In this document: positions 33,785-38,300 of the stretch, one piece after another
Layout: every line of letters starts with the position of its first letter
Numbering within the stretch: the stretch's first letter is position 1
Source: an uncultured Actinomycetes bacterium
Lineage (GTDB): Bacteria > Actinomycetota > Actinomycetes > Nanopelagicales > Nanopelagicaceae
Assembly (NCBI GenBank): GCA_903871555.1
Contig: CAIQHM010000081.1
Coordinates: 1-38,300, forward strand
Length of the DNA stretch: 38,300 nt
Direction: 5' to 3'
The notes under the pieces: generated by a model
Database searches by the model: none
What the model saw: only the letters and a program-made list of their open reading frames with translations
Told to the model about the DNA's origin: nothing
Program-made: the position numbers and the translations under genes

Positions 33785-34216
33785 TTAAAAGAGTCCTGGC
33801 AACACCTCCGATGAAACATCAGAGAATGTTTTTTCACGATCAGCCAAATAACTTTCCCAAGCTGCGCTATCCCAAATTTCTAAACGAGTATTTGCGCCGA
33901 TAACGACACACTCTTTTTCTAAACCGGCATAAGTGCGAAGTCCTGCAGGAATTGTTACGCGACCTTGTTTATCTGGAACTTCATCGTGTGCGCCAGCAAA
34001 CATCACGCGCATGTAATCGCGTGCTGCCTTTTCGGTGACGGGAGCTAAACGCAGACGTTCAGTTATTGAAGAAAATTCACCACTTGGAAATACATATAAA
34101 CAACGCTCTTGGCCTTTTGTTATTACAAGTCCATTAGCTAACTCATCTCGGAATCTTGCGGGCAAAATGATCCGGCCCTTTTCATCGAGTTTTGGTTCGT
34201 GGGTACCGAGAAACAC
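33785..34216 (-). CDS. mraZ: Transcriptional regulator MraZ
   Basis: MraZ is an AbrB-like, ring-forming DNA-binding protein that controls its own dcw operon. The 143 residues contain two MraZ domains, the first [21 protein letters not shown], the second [19 protein letters not shown], each with the DxKGR/DxQGR signature. I start it at the GTG at 34216, giving (f)Met-Phe-Leu-Gly-Thr-His as in actinobacterial relatives. GGGGAGG at 34231-34225 stands eight bases upstream. A GTG at 34225 would overlap that site and is rejected. rsmH starts 163 nt after the mraZ stop, leaving room for a structured leader. Confidence 0.96.
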
Positions 34217-34224
34217 TTGACCCA

Positions 34225-34231
34225 CCTCCCC
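34225..34231 (-). promoter_or_regulatory. mraZ ribosome-binding site GGGGAGG
   Basis: Strong site with eight-base spacing to the GTG at 34216. It overlaps the alternative GTG at 34225 and so decides the start. Confidence 0.8.
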
Positions 34232-34272: not shown

Positions 34273-34346
34273 CCACTTTACTCCATTTCTACCCACTTTG
34301 CACCATTCTGGACCATTTATTTCCACAATTCACCCAGAGCTCCCCA
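34273..34346 (-). promoter_or_regulatory. Candidate MraZ operator: eight phased TGG repeats
   Basis: On the minus strand TGG triplets occur with their plus-strand CCA starts at 34273, 34283, 34293, 34303, 34313, 34323, 34334 and 34344. The steps are 10 bp with one of 11 bp, so all lie on one face of the helix. Extended units read TGGGG, TGGGT, TGGAA, TGGTC, TGGTG, TGGGT, TGGAG and TGGTG. E. coli MraZ is known to bind direct TGGGN repeats with this spacing just upstream of mraZ. The array ends 57 nt before the mraZ start codon. Confidence 0.75.
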
Positions 34347-34358
34347 TATTTTGGGCAT

Positions 34359-34383
34359 AAAAAAACCACCCAAGAGGGGTGGT
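34359..34383 (-). terminator. Rho-independent terminator after the DUF3040 gene
   Basis: On the minus strand ACCACCC (34383-34377) and GGGTGGT (34371-34365) form a seven-pair stem with loop CTCTT, followed by a run of six to seven T. It lies 21 nt after the DUF3040 stop and insulates the mraZ control region. Confidence 0.88.
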
Positions 34384-34830: not shown

Positions 34831-36009
34831 TTAAGCTTCTTCTTCGAATTCATCGAATAATCGGGCCGGTCGAACGCTTCCTTGGCCAAATCTGGCGCTC
34901 GCCTTATCAATTGCTGCAGTTGCTTGGCGCCAACCCTTCTCGCGCTCCCCCAGTATTAACTGTTCGCTGCCATCTATGCCATCTTCAAGACCATCGAGGC
35001 TTACTCCAACTAGCCGAAGTCTGGCGCGATCTAATTTAAGTGCAAGAAAAAGTGATTTAACAACATCAAAAACTTCATGTGTTGCACTTATCGCAAGTGG
35101 AAGAGTTTTAGATCGAGTTATAGTTTTAAAATCTGCAAAGCGCACTTTGATGGAAATAGTTCGGGCGCTGAAATCTTTCTCGCGCATTCGATATGTTGCC
35201 TTCTCGGTTAGCCGCAAGAATTCCCGCAAAATAATATCTTGGTCCTCAATATCAGTATCGAAAGTTTCAGCTGCGCTAATTGATTTATCTACCTCTTCAG
35301 GAATCACATCTCGGTAATCGCGCCCCCACGATAATTCATAAAGTGAAGCACCAGCCGACTCTCCAAGTGCCCGCATTAGAGTTTGACGAGGAGTATTTGC
35401 GATATCAGCAACTGTTCGAAGGCCTAACTTTTGTAGCTCTTCATTTGTCTTAGGCCCTACTCCCCAAATTGCGCTCACCGGAAGTGGATGCAGAAATTCT
35501 AGAACTCGATCTGGCGCTATTTCTAACATGCCATTTGGTTTACAGCGACTTGATGCAAGTTTTGCAATGAATTTTGTTGTGGCAATTCCAACTGAGCAAG
35601 TGATCCCTTCACTTGCTTCTACCTTTGCACGAATTTGCTTTGCAATTTCACGACCATCACCTAGTAAGCGTTTGGCACCTGTTACATCGAGAAATGCCTC
35701 ATCCAGTGAGAGTGGCTCGACAAGTGGGGTTACAGAGCGGAAAATTTCCATAATGTGTGTTGAGACTTCGGAATAGCGCGCCATATTTGGTGGGACAAAT
35801 ATTGCATGGGGCGCCAATCGCTTTGCACGACCAACTGGCATTGCGGCATGAATTCCAAATTTGCGAGCTTCATAATTTGCTGCTGATACAACGCCGCGGA
35901 CTCCTGTTCCGACAACAACAGCTTTACCTTTCAACGCTGGGTTGTCGCGCTCTTCTACAGATGCGAAGAAAGCATCCATATCAACATGGAGAATTGTTTG
36001 CTCACTCAT
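34831..36009 (-). CDS. dinB: DNA polymerase IV (Y family, DinB)
   Basis: DinB is a translesion polymerase. The 392 residues keep all three metal-binding carboxylates, Asp10 in HVDMDAFFASVEE and Asp103 and Glu104 in SLDEAFLDVTG, so it is an active polymerase and not an ImuB-type inactive relative. YEARKFGI, CSVGIATTKFIAKLAS, the HhH region WGVGPKTNEELQKLG and a little-finger domain follow. The end, RPARLFDEF, may serve as a clamp-binding peptide. I use ATG 36009, with GGAA close upstream; it overlaps the dnaE2 stop by eight bases. An ATG at 36027 has no ribosome-binding site. Confidence 0.94.
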   Translation of the reverse strand: MSEQTILHVDMDAFFASVEERDNPALKGKAVVVGTGVRGVVSAANYEARKFGIHAAMPVGRAKRLAPHAIFVPPNMARYSEVSTHIMEIFRSVTPLVEPLSLDEAFLDVTGAKRLLGDGREIAKQIRAKVEASEGITCSVGIATTKFIAKLASSRCKPNGMLEIAPDRVLEFLHPLPVSAIWGVGPKTNEELQKLGLRTVADIANTPRQTLMRALGESAGASLYELSWGRDYRDVIPEEVDKSISAAETFDTDIEDQDIILREFLRLTEKATYRMREKDFSARTISIKVRFADFKTITRSKTLPLAISATHEVFDVVKSLFLALKLDRARLRLVGVSLDGLEDGIDGSEQLILGEREKGWRQATAAIDKASARFGQGSVRPARLFDEFEEEA

Positions 36010-38300
36010 GCGTTCCACTGGCTCCATAAACTGCGAGATTACGCCACTTTTCGTAGGAAATTGCTAACTCCCACGCACCAGTTCCGAGAAGTGAAATTCC
36101 GCGAGGTCCGGTTCTGCGGATTTCACCGCGTACTAAAAAGAGCCATGAGTTACGAAGGGTTGAAGCAAAGTCGGCTTGCTTATCTTCGAAGAAGGTTATG
36201 TCGTTGCAACCAAAGCCATCATCAATAGTTAAAAACATTACCCGTCGTCCAGAACGTACTGGTGGGGTTTGAAGTGCAACCTTTACCCCAGCAACTAATA
36301 CCGATGTACCGGATCTATGTTTAATTAAATCCGAAGAACGAACCGCTCCGATCTTATTTAGGAAATCACCATAGAACTCGAGTAGGTGGCTTGAGATATC
36401 CATTCCCAAAATATCAATCTCACTTTTAACTTGTTCGCTAGCAGTTATATCTGGCAGGCCGCTGGGCTCAAGGCGCGGCGGCTGTAGTTCAAAGGTCATC
36501 TGACTCTGGCTGGTTGTGCTCTTTGAACCAGCAAGACGATAGAGATCTTGGAGATGAAGGAGTAAGTCTCGACGATTTAAATTTGAGGTCGCTAGTTTAT
36601 GTAAATCATCAAATGCACCGACCATTAGAAGTGATTGTGTTGTTGGGCGGCTAGCACCAGAACGATAAACAAAATCTGCTAAATCCAAATAGGGTCGTCC
36701 AGAAATTATATTTTCAACTTCTTTACTGTCGATGCCATCGATATCGCTAAGGGCCATTCGAATTGCAAAACCCCGAGCATCCGGAAGTTTGAGTGGCTCA
36801 CCAGAACTTGCAACATCAGGTGCAAGGTATGGCGCTCTTGCAACATCAGATGTTCTTTCAACCCGATATGTTGCATCAGATAAATTGACATCAATCGCAG
36901 CAAGCTTTATTCCCCATTGTCTTGCTTCATCGAGAATTACGCGCTTGGGATACATCCCCGGTTCGTGCGTTAAGACACCGGCGAGAAATGCTGCCGTGTG
37001 ATGTGTCTTAAGCCAAGATGATTGATAAGTAGGAAGTGCAAATGCCGCGGCATGCGCTTTACAAAATCCGAAAGAGGCAAAGGCGCGCAAGATTTCCCAG
37101 ACTTCAGTCACGACCAAATCGGTATAACCACGCGCAAGAGCTGCGGGATAGAACCAATCACAGACCGCCTGCTGGTTAGCAATATCGCCTAATTGACGCC
37201 GCTTTTCATCAGCTTCAGCAAGAGTTATTCCAGTCATCACCGAAATGATTCGGATAACTTGTTCGTGAAAAACAACAACGCCTTCGGTCTCACGCAGAAT
37301 ATCTTCGAGATCTTCATGGATCCTTGGTCGGATCCGCAGTCCGTGTCTGGTCGCAAGAAATGGCGTAATCATGTCGCTCTTTACTGGGCCCGGGCGAAAG
37401 AGTGAGATATCAATAATTAAATCGTTAAAAGTATCTGGCGCAAATTTTCCGACAAGTTCGCGCTGTCCTGGACTTTCGATTTGAAATATCCCAAGAGTGC
37501 GCGTTGATTTAATCAAATCAAATGTTTGCTTGTCATCAAGTGGGATTGCATCGATATCAAGTGGCTTTCCTTCGATTCGCTCGATTTCAGATAGCGTGTA
37601 AGAAATTGCAGATTGCATCCGCACCCCAAGAACATCTAGCTTTAAAAGTCCGATTGCCTCGACATCATCTTTATCAAATTGCACCATCGGATAACCGCTG
37701 GCGTTAATTTGTTGGGGTGCACAATCACCCAGCTTGGAATCTGCCAACACGATTGCGCATGGATGCATCGATAAATGTCGTGGCAGCGAATCCAAACGCC
37801 CGGCAAGTTCGATTGCCATCTTTAAAATTGGCGTATCTAAATTTAGATGTTTCAACTCTGGCAGATTTGCTAAGGCTTTTGGAATATTGCTCGATCTAAT
37901 ATGTGGCATTGATTTTGCAATTAGATCAATCTCCATTGGAGATATTCCAAGTGCAGCCCCAACATCACGAATCGCATGGCGAGATCTATAGGTTTCAACC
38001 ATCGAAACTGTTGCGCATCTCTGCCCATATTTTTCAAAGATCGCGCCATAAATTTCTAACCGTCTTGCTGATTCAACATCAATATCAATATCCGGTAATT
38101 CACCGCGAAGCGGCGAACAGAAACGCTCCATCAATAATCCGTGTGTTATTGGTTCAACGCCAGAGATTCCAAGTACGTGACAGATTAAGGAGCCAGCACC
38201 ACTTCCCCGCGCTGCAACTCGAATCCCCTTTTCTCGTGACATATCGGTGATATCTGCAACCGTTAAAAAATAAGATTCGTAACCAAGGGTTCGAATTGCA
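36002..38300 (-). CDS. dnaE2: Error-prone DNA polymerase DnaE2-type (partial, 5' end outside window)
   Basis: The frame is open to the right edge, so the start and any PHP domain lie outside. About 766 residues are visible. RVAARGSGAGSLICHVLGI and PDIDIDVESARR carry the palm catalytic aspartates. The third is in GLLKLDVLGVRMQSA. FQIESPGQRELV, SLFRPGPVKSDMITPFLA, VVFHEQVIRII and FCKAHAAAFALPTYQSSWLKT are typical of DnaE2/ImuC and not of DnaE1. A C-terminal OB-fold is visible (VLVAGVKVALQTPPVRSG). DnaE2 in Mycobacterium acts in damage-induced mutagenesis with ImuA' and ImuB. Here the next gene is an active dinB. An insert near ERTSDVARAPYLAPDVASSG contains a short direct repeat. Confidence 0.92.
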   Translation of the reverse strand, partial: AIRTLGYESYFLTVADITDMSREKGIRVAARGSGAGSLICHVLGISGVEPITHGLLMERFCSPLRGELPDIDIDVESARRLEIYGAIFEKYGQRCATVSMVETYRSRHAIRDVGAALGISPMEIDLIAKSMPHIRSSNIPKALANLPELKHLNLDTPILKMAIELAGRLDSLPRHLSMHPCAIVLADSKLGDCAPQQINASGYPMVQFDKDDVEAIGLLKLDVLGVRMQSAISYTLSEIERIEGKPLDIDAIPLDDKQTFDLIKSTRTLGIFQIESPGQRELVGKFAPDTFNDLIIDISLFRPGPVKSDMITPFLATRHGLRIRPRIHEDLEDILRETEGVVVFHEQVIRIISVMTGITLAEADEKRRQLGDIANQQAVCDWFYPAALARGYTDLVVTEVWEILRAFASFGFCKAHAAAFALPTYQSSWLKTHHTAAFLAGVLTHEPGMYPKRVILDEARQWGIKLAAIDVNLSDATYRVERTSDVARAPYLAPDVASSGEPLKLPDARGFAIRMALSDIDGIDSKEVENIISGRPYLDLADFVYRSGASRPTTQSLLMVGAFDDLHKLATSNLNRRDLLLHLQDLYRLAGSKSTTSQSQMTFELQPPRLEPSGLPDITASEQVKSEIDILGMDISSHLLEFYGDFLNKIGAVRSSDLIKHRSGTSVLVAGVKVALQTPPVRSGRRVMFLTIDDGFGCNDITFFEDKQADFASTLRNSWLFLVRGEIRRTGPRGISLLGTGAWELAISYEKWRNLAVYGASGTHE
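36807..36849 (-). repeat. 13-bp direct repeat, 30-bp period, inside dnaE2
   Basis: CTTGCAACATCAG on the plus strand occurs at 36807-36819 and 36837-36849, exactly ten codons apart, encoding the two Asp-Val-Ala stretches. It may be the trace of a small in-frame duplication. Confidence 0.7.

Follow-up and report, generated by a model that had tools for sequence, protein, structure and literature searches.

A phased GG array across the predicted dcw promoter of a Nanopelagicaceae genome: a probable extended MraZ operator

How ring-shaped MraZ reads a series of straight DNA repeats, and how many of its subunits are used, is unsettled in the literature surveyed. The protein is reported to repress its operon in E. 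coli (PMC7761207), and likewise in Mycoplasma genitalium (PMC8475190). A literature search found no paper on an MraZ–DNA structure, and ring stoichiometry is taken here from PMC5282649 and PMC7761207. The question is raised again by a stretch of 38,300 nucleotides (the window) from an uncultured member of the Nanopelagicaceae (GenBank assembly GCA_903871555.1, contig CAIQHM010000081.1), in which eight TGG triplets recur at helical intervals upstream of mraZ. Is this array an operator for MraZ, and do all eight units belong to it? The array is very probably an MraZ operator, in which an MraZ ring on a promoter-bearing core would repress its own operon while units further upstream would hold additional MraZ. 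Judged by its sequence, it is a known kind of site in an extended and promoter-embedded form.

The genes of this region are read from the minus strand, as are all features described below, in the order DUF3040 gene, hairpin, array, mraZ, rsmH, a small ORF and a penicillin-binding-protein-like ORF. The outer border of the array is a terminator-like hairpin of the DUF3040 gene (34365..34383, from a hairpin scan), whose T tract runs to about 34358. The mraZ gene (33785..34216) is intact in the genome and is the first gene of the dcw cluster. Its product, a predicted repressor of 143 aa, matches Pfam MraZ in two stretches (E 6.7e-41), and Pfam together with an alignment of 24 relatives finds both repeats (halves) and both D-x-x-G-R motifs intact. 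Because the start region is conserved in that alignment, the GTG at 34216 is the most likely start codon, in place of position 34225 of the ORF list, 9 bases earlier. Direct reading places a Shine-Dalgarno-like GGGGAGG at 34225..34231. The small ORF 3' of rsmH has no Pfam match and would be ftsL-like by position; the penicillin-binding-protein-like ORF appears ftsI-like by position and sequence. PDB sequence matches to MraZ are 1n0e, 9qlr, 9sx6 and 9qlg. An AlphaFold model of the subunit, built with 24 close homologues, was discarded (mean pLDDT 45).

Minus-strand TGG triplets start at 34346, 34336, 34325, 34315, 34305, 34295, 34285 and 34275, giving steps of 10, 11, 10, 10, 10, 10 and 10 bp over the span 34346–34273. 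The preliminary description had reported eight such triplets, at 10-bp steps with one of 11 bp, in 74 bp between a terminator and mraZ, and every position is confirmed. It had also remarked that only some units carry the full TGGG; three of the eight do (34346, 34336 and 34295). The 170 bp preceding mraZ were shuffled 20,000 times with dinucleotides preserved; with steps of 9–11 bp permitted, no shuffle yielded a TGG chain of 8, the longest being 7, seen once. When only exact 10-bp steps count, the chain is 6 in the array and at most 5 in the shuffles; at other periods from 5 to 20, TGG chains reach at most 6 (9/10). The genome (1.34 Mb in 100 contigs, 99.95% complete) was searched for related patterns. 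Five exact 10-bp TGG units, four phased RKGG units and three phased RTGG units each have their sole occurrence at the mraZ array, and a reversed control pattern has zero matches. The array consists of two blocks. Five GG units in 10-bp phase form the core operator (34273..34317; TGG at 34315, 34305, 34295, 34285 and 34275, phases −4 to 0). Three looser units form an upstream extension (34323..34346; TGG at 34346, 34336 and 34325, phases −7 to −5), and the single 11-bp step, between 34336 and 34325, lies inside it. The GG dinucleotides recur on the same side of the helix.

Described MraZ sites are marked by direct repeats that have a GTG/TGG core, recur every 10 bp and stand immediately before mraZ, and this is what is found here. 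The MraZ boxes before E. coli mraZ are known from Eraso et al. (2014), as relayed by PMC7761207 and PMC8475190. The K-12 sequence upstream of mraZ reads GTGGGAAATT GTGGGGCAAA GTGGGAATAA GGGG with a 10-bp step, and so resembles the array in its TGGG-type direct repeats, exact 10-bp period, position before mraZ and orientation. Beside its three TGGG units, K-12 has a fourth unit in phase, AAGGGG. The Mollicutes repeat is AAAGTG[T/G] (PMC8475190), and the Mollicute core site has been written (AAAGTGKN3)3, with a 10-bp period (Fisunov et al. 2016, as relayed by PMC5282649 and PMC8475190). The window unit AAAGTGG matches it in GTG core, A-rich flank and period. In M. genitalium the site occurs once in the genome, at mraZ, and the array is likewise unique in its own genome. 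Burkholderia cenocepacia has four 7-nt GTG-containing repeats with 3-nt spacers, again a 10-bp period (PMC7761207). Position, phase and unit thus all speak for the MraZ-type operator that the preliminary description had proposed. Unit number and geometry differ. Published sites have three or four repeats, whereas the array has eight, as does the modal member of its family; unit number is not treated as defining. A single octamer is reported to occupy the three-repeat core site of Mycoplasma (PMC5282649), in contrast to some eight units here. The promoter/array geometry, too, differs from that described for E. coli and Burkholderia: in K-12 the three TGGG units and the AGGGG unit lie downstream of the −10 box, and the four B. 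cenocepacia repeats cover the start site and are likewise downstream of the −10 (PMC7761207), whereas the units of the window lie upstream of and across the predicted promoter.

To see which letters are conserved, the regions preceding 106 distinct mraZ genes were compared. Among named relatives, the nearest are for the most part MAGs of freshwater actinobacteria, with records of Candidatus Nanopelagicaceae and of Candidatus Planktophila among them. An anchor, GGNGTANNGTGG, is present in 105 of the 106 regions, the exception being truncated. Phase 0 denotes the last unit; phases −1 and 0 lie inside the anchor motif, and phases −2 to −4 outside it. The array stands directly before mraZ in every sampled relative with an intact upstream region. 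At phases −4, −3, −2, −1 and 0, all of the 88–89 family members measurable per phase (100%) have GG in register. At phases −5, −6 and −7 it is found in about 55–75% of the family, at the phase or one base before; at −8 (the ninth unit) and −9 it is at background, so that conservation stops sharply beyond −7. The T of TGG is kept in 62–89% of the family at phases −4 to −1 versus 8–16% upstream. What the family conserves is a helically phased GG rather than TGG, and a TGG-only count underrates conservation in relatives. The expectation that the TGG phase would be conserved among relatives while the spacers vary therefore holds for the phase, read as GG, and for the spacers, and fails for the triplet. 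Phased GG chains counted from phase 0 peak at eight, in 33 of 86 family members versus 1.7 expected when the region beyond phase −4 is shuffled. Eight exact TGG occur in the genome of the window only (1/86). Since the modal chain is eight, the upstream T is unconserved and one member alone has eight TGG, the eight units are a real family tendency and the eight exact TGG a local coincidence on top of it. The number singled out in the preliminary description thus stands, with the amendment that the units are unequal: five are invariant and three loose.

The main rival reading, disfavoured here, accepts the core of four or five units as the MraZ operator and regards the upstream three TGG as G-rich background or another promoter-upstream feature, so that a count of eight would be meaningless. 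The weakness of the upstream letters just described is in its favour, as is the absence of eight exact TGG from every other family member. Most other families have three to five units, and the terminator may simply set the upstream end of the array. Against it, the phasing of the upstream GG far exceeds what chance would give. In 58 representatives less than 60% identical there, which are still kin by descent and mostly metagenome-assembled genomes, 133 of 174 upstream positions are in phase versus 27–49 when the register is moved to a distant shift; none of 20,000 random rotations does as well. The sharp end of conservation after phase −7 also speaks against mere background. A core-only operator is accordingly possible, with the odds against it.

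The simplest mechanism comes from a predicted promoter inside the array, which is absent from the preliminary description. A strict sigma-70 consensus scan of the region finds no promoter, and the hexamers emerged from comparison alone. The predicted −10 box, TAAAGT (34275..34280), shares its last T with the T of the last unit; it is TAAAGT family-wide and TANNGT in other families of the class. The predicted −35 box, TGCAAA (34297..34302), is separated from it by a 16-nt spacer and is TTGAC in most other families sampled. TGCAAA-N16-TAAAGT of the window aligns with TTGAAA-N16-TAAAGT in 54 of 89 family members. By this comparison the array overlaps the predicted dcw promoter, and we infer that the promoter lies inside the five-unit core, with its −35 and −10 boxes between and within units. 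Because the promoter is inside the array, bound MraZ should exclude RNA polymerase.

The proposed operator could work as follows. (i) Each subunit of an MraZ ring would contact one unit, on successive helical turns. (ii) A ring on the core would cover the −35 box, spacer and −10 box and so block RNA polymerase. (iii) By this exclusion MraZ would repress its own gene and operon. (iv) The three looser upstream units would hold more MraZ, either a second ring or the remainder of the first. (v) This extra MraZ would bind cooperatively, possibly with lower affinity. (vi) Upstream occupancy would then deepen or sharpen repression as MraZ accumulates. Graded affinity, arising from the invariant and loose blocks, is plausible on sequence grounds. 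A more specific version, put forward tentatively, is that the family operator has reached the size of a full octamer footprint of eight turns: a single ring would wrap some 80 bp of the promoter DNA, if the DNA bends, or two rings would lie side by side. Two rings would suit eight units no less well than one, since a single Mycoplasma octamer is reported to sit on a three-repeat core (PMC5282649). If the version is true, an octamer-size operator would let MraZ switch its own division operon more steeply than the described sites of three or four units do.

Beyond the family, the register is retained. Among the other families sampled in the class, most of those with a match have the core GGTTGAC-GTGGNG...GTGGNGTANNGTGG, sharing both register and embedded TTGAC/TANNGT promoter with the array of the window. 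Of 198 genomes from the class, 105 have the strict core pattern, almost always as a single copy. Other actinobacterial families mostly have three to five units versus eight in the family of the window. In other families of the class the units lie mainly at phases −3 to +1, with no excess beyond −4, whereas the Nanopelagicaceae array extends upstream instead; one downstream unit is frequent in other Actinobacteriota (phase +1 in 14/16). Two to four units are present in most readable regions of other classes of the phylum. In the 198 genomes, a pattern of 32 bases, GGN8GGN8GGNGTANNGTGG, is close to unique within any one genome and could mark the dcw promoter; it also exposes a lineage-specific −35, which is TTGAC, TTGCA or none recognizable. 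In one genus, whose genomes measure 7–10 Mb, MraZ gives no match in 12 of 13 and a marginal partial match in the remaining one. This mraZ-less genus, a single clade, keeps rsmH, preceded by a TTGACC...TAAAGT-type promoter. GG is found there in 2/13 at phase −2 and 1/13 at phase 0, versus 16/16, while phases −1 (12/13) and +1 (10/13) are retained. The pattern is the one expected if selection on an MraZ site were relaxed and the promoter kept, although the loss is partial and seen in one clade.

The last comparison bears on a reading that takes the phased pattern for a DNA-curvature element, or for the site of another regulator such as MtrA, and not of MraZ. A-rich spacers are indeed phased too in the core consensus, and in Dietzia, also an actinobacterium, the region of the mraZ promoter is a target of MtrA (PMC9602371). 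GG, however, are the most conserved letters; the unit matches described MraZ repeats (PMC8475190, PMC5282649; E. coli K-12); the pattern is found at mraZ and hardly anywhere else; and GG at two core units is depleted in the mraZ-less genus. This reading is improbable. MtrA may act nearby, yet it leaves the GG repeat unexplained. Least credible of all is control of mraZ by a G-quadruplex on the G-rich strand, as proposed for Staphylococcus aureus: a motif near the mraZ promoter is reported as conserved in several bacteria (PMC11796246), but the array has three runs of at least 3 G and no canonical motif (four runs of at least 3 G, loops 1–12), such a motif is present in only 12 of 86 family cores, and a quadruplex needs no 10-bp phase. 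By this comparison, some of the motifs that have been described as G-quadruplexes ahead of mraZ may be MraZ boxes.

With the array read as an extended MraZ operator, the lineages compared offer a natural operator series of 3, 4, 5 and about 8 units, in one register and on one promoter, for a direct test of occupancy, cooperativity and ring opening or wrapping. They also allow the dcw promoter and operator of Actinobacteriota to be defined by sequence across the phylum, genome-streamlined freshwater lineages included.

Two further features lie near the operator. Between the array and the mraZ start codon, downstream of the predicted start site, is a hairpin with a GGGG loop and variable stem (34263–34244). 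Its arms in the window are TCAAATCC-GGGG-GGATTTGA, and those of relatives include CTTAAATC/GATTTAAG, CTTAATTC/GAATTAAG and GCAGGAC/GTCCTGC. The arms covary: among 38 distinct leaders with a G-run, real pairing exceeds that of shuffled arms (0/5,000 as good), a test inflated by kinship. The hairpin matches no Rfam family at its cut-off; SAM_alpha and bxd_5 were rejected, both being sub-threshold and at chance level. It is possibly an mRNA 5'-end element. On the other side of the array, 34831–38299 contains a Y-family DNA polymerase gene (DinB-type, Pfam IMS) and a long ORF of DnaE-type appearance. The start of the DinB-type gene overlaps the end of the DnaE-like ORF (36002–36027), and their sequences suggest a translesion-synthesis pair adjoining the dcw cluster.
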